From: Geodermatophilus sp. DSM 45219
GTDB taxonomy: Bacteria > Actinomycetota > Actinomycetes > Mycobacteriales > Geodermatophilaceae
Length of the DNA: 64,000 nt
Reading direction: 5' to 3'
NCBI RefSeq assembly: GCF_900104025.1
Contig: NZ_FNIQ01000001.1
Coordinates: 248,001 to 312,000 of the forward strand
Shown here: positions 12,332 through 46,061 of the stretch, piece after piece
Position numbering within the stretch: position 1 is the stretch's first letter
Layout of the letters: each line of letters begins with the position of its first letter
Program-made: the position numbers and the translations under genes
The notes under the pieces: model-generated
Database searches by the model: none
What the model saw: only the letters and a program-made list of their open reading frames with translations
Told to the model about the DNA's origin: nothing

Positions 12332-12408
12332 GTGGCCGAGCTCGCGAGGACACGGATGAACAGAGCACCCCAGGGCATGCGCCCGACGAGCGCCAGCGAG
12401 GAGGGGGC
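12332..12408 (+). repeat. Intercistronic repeat family A, copy 1 (before fliE)
   Basis: About 77 bases filling the flgC-fliE gap and closely matching copies at 14327, 16353 and 45985. Conserved blocks are CCGAGCTCGCGAGG, CAGAGCACCCC-GGGCA, CGACGAGCG-CAGCGAGGAGG, then the start codon of the next gene followed by ACC. The GAGGAGGGGG at its end is the fliE ribosome binding site. Confidence 0.8.
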
Positions 12409-12738
12409 ATGACCTCGCCGATCGGTGGCATCTCCTTCCCGTCCGCGGTCACCGGCCTGGCCGGGGTCACCGGCACGGACGCCACGGACGCCGTCGCCCG
12501 GACGCCGGCGGCCGGCGACAACGGGTTCGCGTCGGTGCTCGTGTCCTCGCTGGAGGAGCTGCAGGCCAAGCAGTCGACGTCCGACGGCCTCGCCGTCCAG
12601 GCCGCCAGCGGCGACCTGCGCGACGTGCACGACTACATGATCGCGTCCAACGAGGCCCGCCTGGCCACCGAGATGGCCGTGACCATCAAGAACAAGGCCG
12701 TCGAGGCCTTCAACGAGATCCTGAGGATGCCGGTCTGA
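12409..12738 (+). CDS. fliE: Flagellar hook-basal body complex protein FliE
   Basis: FliE links the MS ring to the rod. The 109-residue product has the family C-terminus: FASVLVSSLEELQAKQSTSD, SGDLRDVHDYMIASNEARLA, MAVTIKNKAVEAFNEILRMP. The ATG at 12409 is placed eight bases after a GAGGAGG that belongs to the preceding repeat element. The stop overlaps the fliF start by one base. Confidence 0.95.
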   Translation: MTSPIGGISFPSAVTGLAGVTGTDATDAVARTPAAGDNGFASVLVSSLEELQAKQSTSDGLAVQAASGDLRDVHDYMIASNEARLATEMAVTIKNKAVEAFNEILRMPV

Positions 12739-14330
12739 TGCCTGCCGCCCTCGCCGGGCCGCTGGAGCGCATCCGCTCCGGGCTCGCCACGATCAGCCTC
12801 GGCCAGAAGGTCGTCATCGGCCTGCTCGCTGCCGGGTTGCTCCTCGGCGGCTTCGTGTTCTACCGGTGGATCACCGCGCCGACCTACGCGCCGCTGTTCT
12901 CCAACCTGGCCTCGGCCGACGCCTCGGCGATCGTCGAGGAGCTCAACGCGGCCGGGGTCGGCTACGAGCTCGCCGACGGCGGCGGCACGATCATGGTGCC
13001 GAACGAGCAGGTCTACGACCTGCGGCTGTCGATGAGCGGCAAGGGGCTGCCCGCCGGCAACGACACCGGGTACGCGCTGCTGGACGAGCAGGGCATCACC
13101 ACCAGCGAGTTCCAGCAGCAGGTCACCTACCAGCGCGCCCTGCAGGACGAGCTGGCCCGCACCCTGCAGTCGCTGGAGGGCGTGCGCACCGCCGTCGTCC
13201 ACCTGGCCCTGCCCGAGGAGGAGGTGTTCGCCTCCGACGAGGCCGAGCCCACCGCCTCGGTGCTGCTGGACCTGGCCCCGGGCACCGCGCTGGACAGCGG
13301 CCAGGTGCAGGCGGTGACCAACCTGGTCTCCTCGAGCATCGAGGGGATGGACCCCGAGCAGGTCACCGTCGCCGACGCCACCGGCGCGGTGCTCTCCGCA
13401 CCGGGCCAGGGCGTGACCAGCGCCGCCGGCGACGCCCGCTCCCAGATGGAGCAGGACTACGAGGCCCGGCTGGCCGACAACGCCCAGGTGATCCTCGACC
13501 GGGTCTTCGGTCCCGGCCGCGCGCAGGTGTCGGTCCGCGCCGACCTCGACCTGGACCAGCGCAGCACCACCTCGGAGACGCACACCTACGAGGAGGGCAC
13601 CCCGCCCATCTCGGAGAGCACGACCACCGAGGACTACACCGGCAACGGCGCCGCGGTCGGCGGCATCCTCGGCCCGGAGAACCAGGCCGACGCCGGGGCC
13701 GGCACCGGGGACTCCACGTACAACAAGGAGTCCACGACCGCGAACAACGCCGTCGGGACGACGGTGGAGACGGTCGAGGCCGCACCCGGTGCGGTCAACC
13801 GGCTGACCGTCTCGGTCGTGATGGACGAGGCCGTGGCCGGCAACGCCAACCAGGCGCAGATCCAGGACCTCATCGGCAACGCCGTCGGTCTGGACGTCGC
13901 CCGCGGCGACGACATCACCGTGGCCTCGATGGCCTTCGACACCAGCGCCGCCGACCGGGCCGCCGAGGAGCTCGCGGCGGCCGAGGAGGCCGAGCGGCAG
14001 GCCCAGCTGTGGTCGATGGTGAAGACCGGCGGCATCGCCCTCGGCATCGCCCTGCTCGTGCTGGTCGTCTGGCTGCGCTCCCGGCGCCGGCAGGACGACG
14101 AGGAGGAGGACTACGAGGCCCTGGAGCTCACCGACGACGTGATGGCCGAGCTGGACCGCATCCGCATCGAGAGCACGCGGGCGGTGCCGGTCGTCGACAA
14201 CGAGGCCCTGGAGCTCGAGGCCGCCGAGCGGGCCCGGGTCCGCGGCGAGATCGCCGCCATGGTCAACGAGAAGCCCGACGAGGTCGCCGCCATGCTGCGC
14301 GGCTGGCTGAGCGAGAGCGGTGTGAAGTGA
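12738..14330 (+). CDS. fliF: Flagellar M-ring protein FliF
   Basis: Forms the MS ring in the membrane, on which rotor, rod and export gate are built. The 530-residue protein has a first membrane segment at about residues 24-46 (VVIGLLAAGLLLGGFVFYRW), a YscJ/FliF domain (YAPLFSNLASADASAIVEEL, STGK-like loop SMSGKGLPAGNDTGYALLDE), the second ring domain (ANNAVGTTVETVEAAPGAVN, RLTVSVVMDE), a second membrane helix near residue 430, and the acidic cytoplasmic tail that binds FliG. The last codons run into a repeat element. Confidence 0.97.
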   Translation: MPAALAGPLERIRSGLATISLGQKVVIGLLAAGLLLGGFVFYRWITAPTYAPLFSNLASADASAIVEELNAAGVGYELADGGGTIMVPNEQVYDLRLSMSGKGLPAGNDTGYALLDEQGITTSEFQQQVTYQRALQDELARTLQSLEGVRTAVVHLALPEEEVFASDEAEPTASVLLDLAPGTALDSGQVQAVTNLVSSSIEGMDPEQVTVADATGAVLSAPGQGVTSAAGDARSQMEQDYEARLADNAQVILDRVFGPGRAQVSVRADLDLDQRSTTSETHTYEEGTPPISESTTTEDYTGNGAAVGGILGPENQADAGAGTGDSTYNKESTTANNAVGTTVETVEAAPGAVNRLTVSVVMDEAVAGNANQAQIQDLIGNAVGLDVARGDDITVASMAFDTSAADRAAEELAAAEEAERQAQLWSMVKTGGIALGIALLVLVVWLRSRRRQDDEEEDYEALELTDDVMAELDRIRIESTRAVPVVDNEALELEAAERARVRGEIAAMVNEKPDEVAAMLRGWLSESGVK

Positions 14331-14403
14331 CCGAGCTCGCGAGGTCACAGGGAGACAGAGCACCCCGGGGCACGGCTCCGACGAGCGTCAGCGAGGAGGG
14401 GCT
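14327..14403 (+). repeat. Intercistronic repeat family A, copy 2 (before fliG)
   Basis: Fills the fliF-fliG gap. It begins at GTGACCGAG, where the TGA is the fliF stop, and has the inverted pair GTGACC/GGTCAC at its left end. It ends CAGCGAGGAGGGGCT directly before the fliG GTG, so it supplies the fliG ribosome binding site. Over 75 bases it is nearly identical to the copy before fliE. Confidence 0.82.
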
Positions 14404-15489
14404 GTGACCCTTGCGTCAGTGGAGCAGATGGTCGGGATCACCCCGGCCGCCCAGGAGACCGCCGTCCTCCCGGCCGTGCGGCAGCCCGCGGCGATGCCGG
14501 GCCTGCGCAAGGCCGCGGTGTTCATCGCGCAGCTGTCCAAGGAGGAGGCCGGCGCGCTGCTGGCCAAGATGCGGCCGCGCGAGGTCGAGCTGCTGACCCG
14601 CGAGCTGATGAAGCTCGGGGCGGTCGAGCCCGACGACGTCGACGGGGTCCTCGAGGAGTTCCACCACCTCATGACCGCCCAGCGGTTCGTGGGACGCGGC
14701 GGTGTGGAGTTCGCGCGCGAGATCCTCGCGGCGGGCCTGGGCGAGGACAAGGCCGACGGCATCCTGTCCCGGCTCAACGTCGTCTACACCGAGGTGCCGT
14801 TCGCCTCGCTGCGCAACGCCGACGTCCGCCAGCTGGTCACCTTCCTCAAGGACGAGCACCCGCAGGTCATCGCCCTGGTGCTCGCCCACCTGACCGCGGC
14901 CCAGTCGGCCGAGGTGCTCTCCGGCTTCGCTCCCGAGCAGCAGGCCGCCGTCGCGCACCGCATCGCGACCATGGACCGCACCTCCCCGGAGATGGTCCGG
15001 CTGGTCGAGGAGGAGCTGGGCCGCCGGATGGGCTCGCTGCTGGCCCACCAGGACATGAGCACCGTCGGCGGCGTCGAGACCCTGGTCGAGATCATCAACC
15101 GCTCGCCGCGGCCGACCGAGCGCTCGATCCTGGAGTGGCTGGACACCACCGACCCGGAGCTGGCCGACCAGGTCCGCGCGCAGATGTTCGTGTTCGAGGA
15201 CATCGTCACCATCGACGACCGCTCCCTGCAGCTGGTGCTGCGCGAGGTCGAGGCCAACGACCTGGCGACCGCGCTCAAGGGCGTGCGCCCCGACGTCCGC
15301 GACAAGGTCGTCCGGAACCTCTCCGAGCGTGCCGCGGAGAACCTCGCCGAGGAGATCGAGCTGCTCGGCCCGGTCCGCACCCGCACGGTCGAGGAGGCGC
15401 AGGCCAAGGTCGTCGGCGTCATCCGCACCCTCGAGGAGCAGGGCGTGCTGACCATCTCGCGGGGCGGTGAGGACGATTTCGTCGCGTGA
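14404..15489 (+). CDS. fliG: Flagellar motor switch protein FliG
   Basis: Rotor protein that couples to the stator and sets rotation direction. The 361-residue product has FliG_N (KAAVFIAQLSKEEAGALLAK), the middle domain with the EHPQ motif (DEHPQVIALVLAHLTAAQSA) and the C-terminal torque helix (FVFEDIVTIDDRSLQLVLRE), where the charged residues contacting MotA are conserved (DDRS...R). Length is typical. The start is GTG, taken from the preceding repeat element. Confidence 0.97.
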   Translation: MTLASVEQMVGITPAAQETAVLPAVRQPAAMPGLRKAAVFIAQLSKEEAGALLAKMRPREVELLTRELMKLGAVEPDDVDGVLEEFHHLMTAQRFVGRGGVEFAREILAAGLGEDKADGILSRLNVVYTEVPFASLRNADVRQLVTFLKDEHPQVIALVLAHLTAAQSAEVLSGFAPEQQAAVAHRIATMDRTSPEMVRLVEEELGRRMGSLLAHQDMSTVGGVETLVEIINRSPRPTERSILEWLDTTDPELADQVRAQMFVFEDIVTIDDRSLQLVLREVEANDLATALKGVRPDVRDKVVRNLSERAAENLAEEIELLGPVRTRTVEEAQAKVVGVIRTLEEQGVLTISRGGEDDFVA

Positions 15490-16354
15490 CGACAGCGCCG
15501 GGAGCATCGCTGCGAGGAACGAGCGAGGAGCGGACCGGCGCGCGGAGTCGCGCCAGTGGACGTCGCCTGATGGAGGACCCCCTGCGCCCCGCCACTCGCC
15601 GGCTGACGTCCGCCCACCACGGGAGTCGCCGCTGCTGCGCGGCGGCACCGCGGCGCAGGCGGCACCCCGGGCGCCGTACACGCGCGCAGTGCCCGTGCCG
15701 CCGCAGCAGACCACCGAGCGGCGGACGACGGTGCGCCGCGCGGCCGACGTCCCGGTGCCCGGCGGCCGGACCGCGCTGCGGCTCGGCGACGTCTACGCCG
15801 AGGAGCTGGCCCGGCTGCGCGAGCACGCCCGCCAGGAGGGCTACGCCGCCGGCCACGCCGAGGGGGTCCAGGCCGCCGACGCCGTCGTCGCCGAGGCCGA
15901 GCGCGCCGCGCAGGCCCGCCTGGCCGAGGTGCAGGCCCGCTGGGAGCGGCGGATGGTCTCGGCCACCGCCGCCCTCGGCGCCGCGGTGACCCAGCTGGAG
16001 GAGGCCGCCGTCCCGGTCGCCGAGGACGTCCGCGACTCGGTGATCACCATCGTCACGACCCTCGTCGAGGACCTGCTCTGCCGCGAGCTCGCCCTGGCGG
16101 AGGACCCGGTGATGGACGCCGTCCGCCGGGCGCTGACGCTGTGCCCGACCGACGAGCCGGCCGTCGTCCGGCTGCACCCCGACGACCTGGCCGAGCTGCC
16201 CGCCGAGGCGCTGGCCGAGCTGCCCGGCACGGTGCGCGTCGTCGGCGACCTCGCCGTGGAGCGCGCCGGCGCGGTCGTCGAGACCGGCCCCGTCCGCGTC
16301 GACGCCCAGCTGGGCGCGGCGCTGGAGCGCGTCCGGGCGGTGCTGGCGTCGTGA
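15467..16354 (+). CDS. fliH: Flagellar assembly protein FliH (start uncertain)
   Basis: FliH regulates the export ATPase FliI. The body is clear: a helical, Ala/Glu-rich centre (EYAEELARLREHARQEG-like, with repeated AxxxG/ExxxA spacing) and the C-terminal FliH/HrpE fold (LEDLLCRELALAEDPVMDAV, VVRLHPDDLAELPAEALAEL, LAVERAGAVVETGPVRVDAQ). The conserved N-terminal motif SPLLRGG lies near codon 54, so translation must start upstream of it. The only in-frame start there is the GTG at 15467 inside fliG; the N-terminus would then be encoded by a repeat element. The ATG at 15570 is in another frame. Confidence 0.85.
   Translation: MRTISSRDDSAGSIAARNERGADRRAESRQWTSPDGGPPAPRHSPADVRPPRESPLLRGGTAAQAAPRAPYTRAVPVPPQQTTERRTTVRRAADVPVPGGRTALRLGDVYAEELARLREHARQEGYAAGHAEGVQAADAVVAEAERAAQARLAEVQARWERRMVSATAALGAAVTQLEEAAVPVAEDVRDSVITIVTTLVEDLLCRELALAEDPVMDAVRRALTLCPTDEPAVVRLHPDDLAELPAEALAELPGTVRVVGDLAVERAGAVVETGPVRVDAQLGAALERVRAVLAS
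15487..15560 (+). repeat. Intercistronic repeat family B, copy 1 (fliG-fliH junction)
   Basis: Starts at the fliG stop codon. Shares GAGCATCGC, CGAGGAGCGGA-C and GCGCGGAGTCG, in that order, with the element before fliQ (27940-28022). If fliH starts at 15467 the element is translated as part of its N-terminus. Confidence 0.65.
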
Positions 16355-16415
16355 GCTCACGCGGAGACGCAGCACGCTGCGGCACGACGCCGCCGAGCGC
16401 CAGCGAGGAGGAGTC
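16353..16415 (+). repeat. Intercistronic repeat family A, copy 3 (before fliI)
   Basis: Shortened copy between fliH and fliI. It keeps GCAGCAC--GCGGCAC, CGAGCGCCAGCGAGGAGGA and the GTGAC start-codon context of the other copies. The GAGGAGGA is the fliI ribosome binding site. Confidence 0.72.
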
Positions 16416-27107: not shown

Positions 27108-27943
27108 TGACCACCTCCCCCGCCCCGGTCCGGGGCGTCCCGGTCGCGCGGCGCGTGGGGCTGGTCCTGCTGCTCGCGGCGCTGCTCGGCGTCGTGCTCG
27201 CGCTGCTGGCCGGCCCGGCGTCCGCGGCCCCCGAGGCGCCGACCGCGCCGACGGCCCCGACCGCCCCCGTGGTGCCCGCCGTCGAGGGCGGCGTGGACAT
27301 CTCCATCGGCGGCGGCAGCCCCAGCACCTCGATCACCCTGATCCTCGCGATCACCGTGCTCTCGGTGGCGCCGGCGGTGATGCTGCTGGCCACCTCGTTC
27401 ACCAAGATCATCGTGGTGCTGTCGCTGACCCGGAACGCGCTGGGCATGCAGATGTCGCCGCCGAACACCGTGCTCACCGGCATCGCGCTGTTCCTGACGC
27501 TGTTCGTCATGGGCCCGGTGTTCTCCGAGATGAACGAGATCGCCGTCCAGCCCTACCTCAACGGGGCCATGACGGTGACGCAGGCCTACGACACCGGCGT
27601 CGTGCCGCTGCGGGAGTTCCTGCTCGACAACACCCGCGAGGACGAGCTGTCGCTGATGGTCGGGCTCTCCGGCGAGGAGGCCCCGGCCGACGCCGCCGCG
27701 GTGAGCATGACGACGCTGGTGCCCGCGTTCGTGCTCTCGGAGCTCAAGAGCGCGTTCATCATCGGGCTGGTCGTGTTCATCCCGTTCCTGGTGCTGGACA
27801 TGCTGGTCAGCGCCGCGCTCATGTCGATGGGCATGATGATGGTGCCGCCGGTGATCGTCTCCCTGCCGTTCAAGCTGCTGCTGTTCGTGGTGGTCGACGG
27901 CTGGGCGCTGATCACGACGGCGCTGGTGGGGAGCTACGGGTGA
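27107..27943 (+). CDS. fliP: Flagellar type III export protein FliP
   Basis: Core of the export gate (FliP5-FliQ4-FliR1). The 278-residue product has a cleavable signal peptide at the start (about 15-40, GLVLLLAALLGVVLALLAGP ASA cleavage), an Ala/Pro-rich linker, then the FliP domains: AITVLSVAPAVMLLATSFTK, IIVVLSLTRNALGMQMSPPN, LVPAFVLSELKSAFIIGLVV, FIPFLVLDMLVSAALMSMGM, MMVPPVIVSLPFKLLLFVVV. Signal peptides on FliP are normal for the family. Confidence 0.97.
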   Translation: MTTSPAPVRGVPVARRVGLVLLLAALLGVVLALLAGPASAAPEAPTAPTAPTAPVVPAVEGGVDISIGGGSPSTSITLILAITVLSVAPAVMLLATSFTKIIVVLSLTRNALGMQMSPPNTVLTGIALFLTLFVMGPVFSEMNEIAVQPYLNGAMTVTQAYDTGVVPLREFLLDNTREDELSLMVGLSGEEAPADAAAVSMTTLVPAFVLSELKSAFIIGLVVFIPFLVLDMLVSAALMSMGMMMVPPVIVSLPFKLLLFVVVDGWALITTALVGSYG

Positions 27944-28022
27944 GTGCCACGAAGACGACGCGCGAGCGAGCATCGCAGGGAGCGCCAGCGACCGAGGAGC
28001 GGAACGAGCGCGGAGTCGAGTC
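27940..28022 (+). repeat. Intercistronic repeat family B, copy 2 (before fliQ)
   Basis: Fills the fliP-fliQ gap from the fliP stop to the fliQ start. Shares GAGCATCGC, CGAGGAGCGGA-C and GCGCGGAGTCG with the fliG-fliH element. Its GCGGAG lies at ribosome-binding distance from the fliQ ATG. Elsewhere in fliM-fliR the genes overlap or nearly touch, so this 79-base insertion stands out. Confidence 0.7.
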
Positions 28023-28298
28023 ATGAGCGACGCCGACGTCACCGAGATCGCCGTCCAGACGATGCTGGTCGCGGCCAAGGTCGCCGCCCCGGTGCTGCTG
28101 ACCGCCCTGCTGGTCGGCTTCCTCATCTCGCTGTTCCAGGCGGCCACGCAGATCCAGGAACCGACGCTGTCCTTCGTCCCGAAGGTCATCGCGGTGGCGA
28201 TCGCGCTGCTGGTCACGGGCAACTGGGTGCTCTCCGAGCTGGTCACGTTCACCCAGAACCTGTTCGACTCGCTGCCGCGGCTGCTCGACCGGACGTAG
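28023..28298 (+). CDS. fliQ: Flagellar export protein FliQ
   Basis: 91-residue two-helix membrane protein of the export gate. Helices at about 16-38 (AAKVAAPVLLTALLVGFLIS) and 51-72 (KVIAVAIALLVTGNWVLSEL) with the conserved LFQAATQIQEPTLSFVPK between them. Length is exactly typical. The ribosome binding site is provided by the repeat element upstream; fliR follows after five bases. Confidence 0.96.
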   Translation: MSDADVTEIAVQTMLVAAKVAAPVLLTALLVGFLISLFQAATQIQEPTLSFVPKVIAVAIALLVTGNWVLSELVTFTQNLFDSLPRLLDRT

Positions 28299-34410: not shown

Positions 34411-34631
34411 GCCCGCTGCGCTGGGACGTGCTGGCGGTGTCGCTCCTCCTGGCCCTGCCGGTGCTGGCCCTCGGGCTGCGCGGTGACCTGTCCGGCGACG
34501 ACGTCGTCGTGCGGCTGCCGTGGTGCCTGGCGGCGGGCTGGGCTGCGGTGGCGCTGCTGCGCTGGGCCGCCATCCCGCGCCCGCCGGCCGCCCCGACCCC
34601 TGCCGAGGACGATCTCACCCCGACGGTCTGA
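34407..34631 (+). CDS. Small two-helix membrane protein
   Basis: 74 residues starting MSPLRWDVLAVSLLLALPVL, with two hydrophobic segments at about 8-25 and 37-53 (WCLAAGWAAVALLRWAAI) and a polar Pro-rich C-terminus. The ATG overlaps the stop of the FlhF-like gene (ATGA), so it is the last gene of the flagellar operon. I do not recognise a family. It could be a partner of the FlhF-like protein at the membrane. Confidence 0.6.
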   Translation: MSPLRWDVLAVSLLLALPVLALGLRGDLSGDDVVVRLPWCLAAGWAAVALLRWAAIPRPPAAPTPAEDDLTPTV

Positions 34632-34656
34632 CCCCGGCGACCGCCGCCCGGCTCGG

Positions 34657-34728
34657 CACTCTCGCGCGGTTCCTGAAGCACGCGCGCTGCTGCAGCAGCG
34701 CCACGACGTCGGGAACAGCGCCAGAGTG
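34657..34728. repeat. Imperfect palindromic element, left copy
   Basis: CACTCTCGCGCGGTTCC at the left end and GGGAACAGCGCCAGAGTG at the right end are near-complementary, with a GCGCTGCTGCAGCAGCGC-like core. A homologous palindrome lies just after the next gene (35726-35797). Confidence 0.75.
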
Positions 34729-34791
34729 GTCGCCGTCCACAGATCCGGTTGATCGCTCCCCCGGCCCCGGCGTGGCCACCAGGCTGGAGGC

Positions 34792-35727
34792 GTGACAGCC
34801 CCGGATCACGAGCCGCCGTTCCTCCTGCGCCGGGCGGACGCGCTGACCGGGGGCTTCGACGACGCGGAGCTCGCCCGGATGGTGCGCCGCGGGGAGCTCC
34901 GCCGCCTGCAGCGCGGTACCTACGCGCACTCGCCGGCGGACCTGCCCACGGACGCCGCCGCGAGACATCGCCTCACCGTGCTGGCCACGATGCCCGGACT
35001 CCGGGTACCCGCGGTGGTGAGCCACCTCTCGGCCGCGGTCCTGCACGGCCTGCCCGTGTGGGGGGTGCTGCTCGCCCGCGTCCACGTCACTCGCCGCCCG
35101 CCGGTGAGTGGCACCGGCAGCACGCGCTTGCGACAGCACGTGGCACGGGTGCCGGAGAACCACCTCACCCTGGTCGACGGGGTCGAGACCACGAGCGTCA
35201 CGCGGACCGTGGTGGACGTCGCCCGGTCGGTGCCCTTCGAGTCCGCCGTCGTGCTCGCCGACCACGCGCTCCGGTCGGGCAGCACCACCCGGCAGGACCT
35301 CGTGGACTGCGTCACGCGGATGGGTCGGATCCCCGGGATCCGCGCCGCCGCGCGGGTGGTCGACTTCGCCGACCCGCTCAGCGAGAGCGTGGGTGAGAGC
35401 CGCAGCAGGGTGCTGATCCACCGGCTGGGACTCCGGCCGCCCGACCTGCAGGTGCGGGTCCGCCGCCGCGACGGCAGCGTCATGGCCCGCTGCGACTTCG
35501 GCTGGGAGGTGCACCGCACCCTCGGGGAGTTCGACGGGCGGGTGAAGTACGGTCGGCTCCTGGGACCGGGGCAGGAGCCAGGTGACGTCGTCTTCAGGGA
35601 GAAGCGGCGGGAGGACGAGCTGCGCGACCACCGCTGGCAGGTCGTCCGCTGGACATGGGACGACCTCGATCGCCCGCGCGGCGTCGGCGATCGCCTCCTG
35701 CGGGCCTTCGCCCGGGGCGGCCGCTGA
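34792..35727 (+). CDS. AbiEi-type antitoxin-domain / DUF559-like protein
   Basis: 311 residues. The N-terminal 55 residues look like the winged-helix domain of AbiEi antitoxins (DDAELARMVRRGELRRLQRG, TYAH). The middle has the actinobacterial AbiEi-like core (AVVSHLSAAVLHGLPVWG, TSVTRTVVDVARSVPFESAV, VLADHALRSG). The C-terminal 100 residues are DUF559/Vsr-like (CDFGWEVHRTLGEFDGRVKY with an acidic D..E..D-K pattern, DHRWQVVRWTWDDL). No AbiEii toxin is next to it. Such orphan genes are common in actinobacteria and of unknown function. It is framed by two palindromic repeats, which suggests insertion at this border. Confidence 0.75.
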   Translation: MTAPDHEPPFLLRRADALTGGFDDAELARMVRRGELRRLQRGTYAHSPADLPTDAAARHRLTVLATMPGLRVPAVVSHLSAAVLHGLPVWGVLLARVHVTRRPPVSGTGSTRLRQHVARVPENHLTLVDGVETTSVTRTVVDVARSVPFESAVVLADHALRSGSTTRQDLVDCVTRMGRIPGIRAAARVVDFADPLSESVGESRSRVLIHRLGLRPPDLQVRVRRRDGSVMARCDFGWEVHRTLGEFDGRVKYGRLLGPGQEPGDVVFREKRREDELRDHRWQVVRWTWDDLDRPRGVGDRLLRAFARGGR

Positions 35728-35797
35728 CTCTCGCGCGGTTCCCCTCACTCACGCGCTGATGCAGCAGCGCGACGGCGGGAGGAACCGCGCGAGAGTC
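35726..35797. repeat. Palindromic element, right copy
   Basis: GACTCTCGCGCGGTTCC at 35726-35742 is the inverted match of GGAACCGCGCGAGAGTC at 35781-35797; the core is ACGCGCTGATGCAGCAGCGC. It shares both ends and core with the copy at 34657. It may also serve as terminator between the AbiEi-like gene and the convergent phoH2. Confidence 0.82.
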
Positions 35798-45476: not shown

Positions 45477-45980
45477 GTGTCCACCCCGACTGACGAGCAG
45501 CACCAGGGCGTCTGGCTGACCCAGGAGGCCCACGACCGGCTGAAGGCCGAGCTCGACCAGCTGGTGGCGGGCCGCCCGGCCATGGCCGCGGAGATCAACG
45601 CCCGCCGCGAGGAGGGCGACCTCCGTGAGAACGGCGGCTACCACGCCGCCAAGGACGAGCAGGGCAAGCAGGAGGCCCGCATCCGCCAGCTGGAGGACCT
45701 GCTGCGGAAGGCCAAGGTCGGCAACGCGCCGACGACGGCGACCCACGCCGCCACCGGCACCGTCATCACCATCCGCTTCCAGGGCGACGACGAGACCGAG
45801 AAGTTCCTCCTCGGCTCCCGCGAGATCGTCGGGACCACGGGGCTGCAGGTCTACTCCCCGGAATCCGCGCTCGGCTCGGCCATCATGGGCGCCGCGCCCG
45901 GTGCGACGGTGACCTACCAGGCGCCCAACGGCCGCGACATCACCGTCGACGTCGTCGCCGTCGAGCCGTTCGTCCCCTGA
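45477..45980 (+). CDS. greA: Transcription elongation factor GreA
   Basis: 167 residues. It rescues backtracked RNA polymerase. The N-terminal coiled coil has the conserved acidic tip ([20 protein letters not shown]) and [16 protein letters not shown]; the C-terminal FKBP-like domain is [60 protein letters not shown] 45477 has CAGGAGC upstream. It is divergent from mca, as in M. tuberculosis. Confidence 0.97.
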
Positions 45981-45984
45981 GCCC

Positions 45985-46061
45985 GTGACCGAGCCTGCGA
46001 GGTCACGCAGGAACGCGGCACCCCGGGGCACCGGGTCGACGAGCGCCAGCGAGGCGGACCG
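45985..46061 (+). repeat. Intercistronic repeat family A, copy 4 (greA to RNHCP gene)
   Basis: Same element as in the flagellar locus: GTGACCGAG..GAGGTCAC at the left, GCACCCCGGGGCAC in the centre, CGACGAGCGCCAGCGAGG at the right, followed by the GTGACC start context of the next gene. It shows that the element is genome-dispersed, not flagellum-specific. Confidence 0.8.

Follow-up and report, generated by a model that had tools for sequence, protein, structure and literature searches.

MIRUs constitute the basis of tuberculosis strain typing, and, to our knowledge, the questions of how they move and which role they play have been open since 1997. IS200/IS605 and REP/RAYT elements, in turn, are single-strand transposons in which guide sequences pair with the sites at the ends of the element, insertion taking place beside a fixed tetranucleotide. 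Regarding their anatomy, MIRUs measure 40-100 bp and, in M. tuberculosis H37Rv, are found at 41 locations, the copy number varying at 12 of these (PMC2734929); further, in the part of PMC12548453 that refers to Supply et al. (1997, Mol Microbiol 26:991), they are described as lying between operon genes, with a small ORF at a spacing of -4 nt.

In this work, we characterized a repeat present in a 64-kb window (i.e., the whole stretch of DNA that was analysed) of a genome (G000, 4.97 Mb) whose family is probably Geodermatophilaceae. We consider it quite likely that this repeat is a MIRU-like mobile element, which inserts at NTGA stop/start overlaps and relays translational coupling; the term MIRU-like refers to its build, the MIRUs of M. 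tuberculosis having been compared through their published description. A previous reading of the window, made from the sequence only, had pointed to four copies, located before fliE, fliG and fliI and at 45985, and all four were found (Table 1). As had also been stated, each of them runs directly into the next start codon, namely that of fliE (identified by Pfam), fliG, fliI and a gene encoding an RNHCP domain. The shared length of about 60-77 bases given in that reading applies as 77 bp to three copies, the third one comprising only 65 bp from position 16351, with 12 bp gone from the loop of the left hairpin and the frame intact. The copies at 12332 and 45985 do not lie on the upstream stop codon, and begin 3-4 nt after it.

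Table 1. Copies of the repeat in the 64-kb window and features identified within them.
Feature	Position in the window	Strand	Description
Copy 1	12332-12408	+	77 bp; gap between flgC and fliE; left end 3 nt past the flgC stop
Copy 1, small ORF	12332-12412	+	26 codons; stops on the ATGA of fliE
Copy 2	14327-14403	+	77 bp; fliF/fliG junction; best-kept of the window copies
Copy 2, small ORF	14327-14407	+	26 codons, VTELARSQGDRAPRGTAPTSVSEEGL followed by a stop; overlap of its GTG with the fliF stop and of its TGA with the fliG GTG
Copy 2, left hairpin	14327-14348	+	GTGACC (14327-14332) pairs with GGTCAC (14343-14348)
Copy 2, right pairing	14369-14408	+	GGCAC and next bases (14369-14377) with 14400-14408, up to and including the fliG start
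Copy 2, Shine-Dalgarno	14393-14399	+	GAGGAGG inside the element; 4 nt 5' of the fliG GTG
Copy 3	16351-16415	+	65 bp; fliH/fliI junction; left boundary at 16351
Copy 4	45985-46061	+	77 bp; GreA-domain gene (stop 45978-45980) upstream, RNHCP-domain gene (start 46062) downstream

A search of the whole genome with a single copy returned 47 matches. With a covariance model (R1) built from an alignment of 28 copies (A1), 44 copies were retrieved at E<1e-3, far beyond what chance would give, and these are grouped in 37 arrays; the clear copies span 65-101 bp, and the arrays hold 1, 2, 3 or 4 units, revealing that the repeat grows in tandem. When coding frames at the array ends were judged by third-position GC, 35 of the 37 arrays were found to end exactly on an NTG that begins a same-strand coding frame; the two that lie off a gene start are degenerate, low-scoring copies. 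In 26 of the 37, fliI counted, a gene running in the same direction has its stop in the left NTGA. The genome is thus populated by many copies placed before gene starts in a single orientation, in agreement with the sequence-only reading, which had described a dispersed, mobile-looking repeat carrying the Shine-Dalgarno sequence of the next gene. Features beyond that reading are that the unit is itself an ORF, that tandem arrays display a period of 77, and that a second pairing is formed at the right end.

NTGANC forms the left end of each unit, which extends up to the next NTGA. The usual length is 77 bp, others being 65, 68, 71, 74, 80 and 101 bp, and nearly all lengths are of the form 3n+2. 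From the left NTG, a frame of 22-27 codons (about 26 being typical) runs to the TGA contained in the right NTGA; the small ORF terminates in this manner in all four window copies, in 28/30 of the first loci and in 18/23 copies from other families, and the motif GAGGAGG is found 4 nt 5' of the downstream start in most copies. Paired units of 78 and 77 bp (L009 plus L024 in G000, and in G041) have a summed length of 3n+2, and about 7 copies are 3n long, in which case the small ORF would be joined, without a change of frame, to the gene or unit that follows. One 75-bp copy (L006, G000 C5:62251) carries its small ORF in frame into the downstream gene, possibly as a 25-residue N-terminal extension. 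Another copy (L015 1500-1600, contig C3 of G000) is split by a 24-bp net insertion with a GC-rich palindrome (TGGGGGCACCTCCCGCTTGCGGGGGA), reaching 101 bp, which is still 3n+2. Mean entropy by codon position was 0.62, 0.59 and 0.55, with no excess variation at the third position; judging from these values, the peptide is not visibly under selection, which points to the frame, more than the peptide, as the relevant feature.

Other repeats were observed in the window. A different one occupies another stop/start junction at 27937-28030 (GAGCGAGCATCGCAGGGAGCGCCAGCGACCGAGGAGCGGAACGAGCGCGGAGTCGAGTC before an ATGAGC start); at this junction, relatives have either similar repeats that differ in length or just the NTGA overlap, and it thus seems to represent a second family of repeats associated with junctions. 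A sequence of similar style, GGGAGCATCGCTGCGAGGAACGAGCGAGGAGC...CGCCAGTGGACGTCGCCTGATG, is found at 15486-15575, at the fliG/fliH junction (the fliH start being uncertain), and a palindrome nearly identical to that of L015 sits within the second repeat type in L090 of genome G053. Furthermore, two partly palindromic 70-bp copies, 79% alike and with ends ACTCTCGCGCGGTTCC and GGAACCGCGCGAGAGT, were located at 34658-34727 and 35727-35796, about 1 kb apart around an ORF (34615-35748), and possibly mark the two termini of a small mobile element.

From the anatomy of the unit, a mechanism can be proposed in which the element would insert at an NTGA formed by a stop codon and the start codon that overlaps it, one NTGA remaining at each end. 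Since the unit measures 3n+2 and its frame stays open between the left NTG and the right TGA, one stop/start overlap would give rise to two: a ribosome ending the upstream gene would re-initiate on the ORF of the element and translate about 26 codons; after termination at the right NTGA, it would start again on the downstream gene, aided by the GAGGAGG of the element, and translational coupling would be relayed rather than broken. The doubling of the overlap by a 3n+2 ORF unit would thereby make insertions tolerable inside operons. Translation relay through the small ORF would be the most likely function of the repeat, and its movement presumably occurs by transposition.

Two pairings were recognized in the unit, and both covary strongly. 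The GTGACC/GGTCAC arms that had been noticed at the left end are present and correspond to a pairing of NTGANC with an internal GNTCAN, of which variants such as ATGACC/GGTCAT and GTGAGC/GCTCAC covary among copies. At the right end, an internal GTCAN-like arm together with the next bases pairs with the right NTGAN and the bases that precede it. In alignment A1, which was made without structure, 88.5% of the cells pair, compared with 76.4% in shuffles, and two-sided changes amount to 42, compared with 13 in shuffles. Covariation was also found in other families (A2) and in 71 distinct copies of the family (A3), these two alignments, unlike A1, having been fitted to the structure and hence being biased towards it. 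The folding energy of single copies is weak (z from +0.8 to -2.7), and the convincing support for the structure is the covariation and not the single-copy energy. The outermost right pair involves the base after NTGA, that is, a base of the downstream gene, and is Watson-Crick in 67/71 family copies; an arm C stands opposite a gene G, and an arm G opposite a gene C, at independent junctions and, in one case, even between species at a single junction. Such a match between the arm and the downstream gene can mean either that the target is chosen by pairing or that selection acted once the element had inserted.

These pairings bear on the possibility that the repeat moves as single-stranded DNA in the manner of IS200/IS605, with the internal arms serving, through base pairing, as guides for the NTGAN cleavage and target sites, and the enzyme being provided in trans. 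As in IS200/IS605 and REP/RAYT, the internal arms of the repeat pair with the sites at both of its ends, here NTGAN, and insertion takes place next to a fixed tetranucleotide; the covariation of the arms, as well as the match of the right arm to the host-gene base with its C/G swaps, would fit such a role. However, the same pairing could have been selected at the RNA level following insertion, and the repeat differs from those systems in having an ORF and a ribosome site and in being placed on stop/start overlaps. The Y1 transposase domain (Y1_Tnp, PF01797), found in the enzyme that serves the best-known guide-pairing elements, was absent from all 114 family genomes searched, with control genomes positive, so that a Y1 transposase was ruled out as the mobiliser. 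On balance, we regard single-strand movement of this kind as unlikely.

The fliG neighbourhood was examined in 40 genomes of the same family. In most of them, fliF and fliG lack the element and overlap by 4 nt (-4), and this includes G061, the closest genome by FliG (98% identical), whose junction is empty; by contrast, the spacing is exactly +73 nt (77-4) in G000, G045, G048, G043, G022, G032 and G025, and +151 nt, equivalent to two units, in G041. Three more flagellar junctions behave alike, with -4 when empty, +73 for a single unit, and at least +151 when more units are present. The relatives without the element therefore display clean empty sites, in which the genes overlap by 4 nt and no leader is found; the proposal of the sequence-only reading that native leaders had been replaced is thus unsupported, the sites corresponding instead to a clean insertion into the overlap.

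In the tree built from FliF, FliG and FliI, the fliF/fliG junction, which holds 0, 1 or 2 units among species, shows at least 8 changes between presence and absence of the repeat. This patchiness, with exact empty sites in sister genomes, largely refutes the view that the repeat is a vertically inherited, non-mobile cis-regulatory RNA (a leader or a coupling switch) belonging to particular genes. Although covarying hairpins that enclose the Shine-Dalgarno sequence and the start codon speak for such an RNA, the downstream genes are unrelated (fliG, fliE, fliI and the RNHCP-domain gene), the repeat forms tandem arrays with a copy number ranging from 1 to at least 39, and no match to the curated covariance models of Rfam was obtained up to E=1; we hence deem this explanation very improbable.

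The copies at the fliF/fliG junction also inform on gain and loss. The G000 copy and the first unit of G041 are mutual best matches (86%) and the intervening lineages are empty, a distribution that probably reflects precise loss in addition to gain, whereas the copies of G045, of the second unit of G041 and of G048/G043 are not closest to one another and, from their sequences, look like separate insertions. Precise loss, possibly through slippage between the terminal repeats, thus also seems to occur. A wider role of replication slippage and of recombination among copies and short NTGAN repeats, accounting for both spread and loss with no transposase, would agree with this implied loss and with the arrays of 2-4 units, which can be nearly identical (98-99% at C6:664376). 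Slippage, however, cannot seed new unlinked sites, and copies are dispersed at 37 places in one genome; moreover, the same junction holds dissimilar copies in different species. Spread by slippage therefore seems quite unlikely, and a MIRU-like mobile element remains our preferred reading.

Beyond the source genome, the repeat was found in 106/115 genomes of the family, with 1 to at least 39 copies per genome. In a class sample of 395 genomes, only 36 gave matches at E<=0.01, the weakest of which resemble chance matches; clear homologues of the same build are present in five other actinomycete families (f2, f10, f11, f15 and f19). A broader model (R2) was used on genus g13, which is probably Mycobacterium, given that it predominates in the sister family f2 and carries an MmpL-type transporter above the NCBIfam cut-off, and yielded matches in 14/118 genomes. 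The g13 copies that were read are nearly all of 65 bp, are bounded by NTGA, contain a 22-codon ORF and occur either singly or as tandem units; their outermost right pair is mostly not formed. No copy was found in the plasmid, phage and viral contig collections searched.

With respect to known systems, the repeat resembles MIRUs in its length (40-100 bp, with a 77-bp type), in the number of loci per genome (about 40), in its location between operon genes in one orientation, in the -4 nt coupling of a small ORF and in a variable tandem copy number. The sequence-only reading knew of no described element of this type; given that mycobacterial MIRUs share this anatomy, small ORF included, that statement does not hold. 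The differences from MIRUs as described are its occurrence outside mycobacteria and the possession of GAGGAGG and of two covarying arms. Searches with MIRU primers gave no direct counterpart: with a MIRU4 primer (PMC8803872), no Mycobacterium record matched among the contigs searched, and the primer of PMC2453075 retrieved only unrelated (mostly MmpL-like) genes and no senX3-regX3 locus in 248 g13 genomes. MITE, BOX and ERIC elements are likewise short, dispersed and non-autonomous, with partly palindromic ends, but the repeat described here lacks long terminal inverted repeats and differs in its strict orientation with gene direction and its exact stop/start placement. A literature search of incomplete coverage returned nothing relevant on MIRU-like elements outside mycobacteria; the spread beyond that group, the clean empty sites and the two covarying arms that pair with NTGA junctions appear to be new.

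A broader and more tentative view, to which we give rather little credence, is that MIRU-like units constitute an actinomycete-wide class of mobile elements specialised in operon junctions, whose insertion is guide-directed, the arms recognising stop/start overlaps along with the first base of the second codon of the downstream gene. If this were true, operon-junction insertions would be moved by a yet-unseen enzyme. The covarying arms represent a concrete clue to how the target might be recognised. With its numerous copies, its complete genomes and the dozens of sites that can be matched between the empty and the filled state, the family, whose members are probably harmless soil and rock bacteria, makes it possible to test directly how specific insertion is, how precise loss comes about and what happens to translational coupling.
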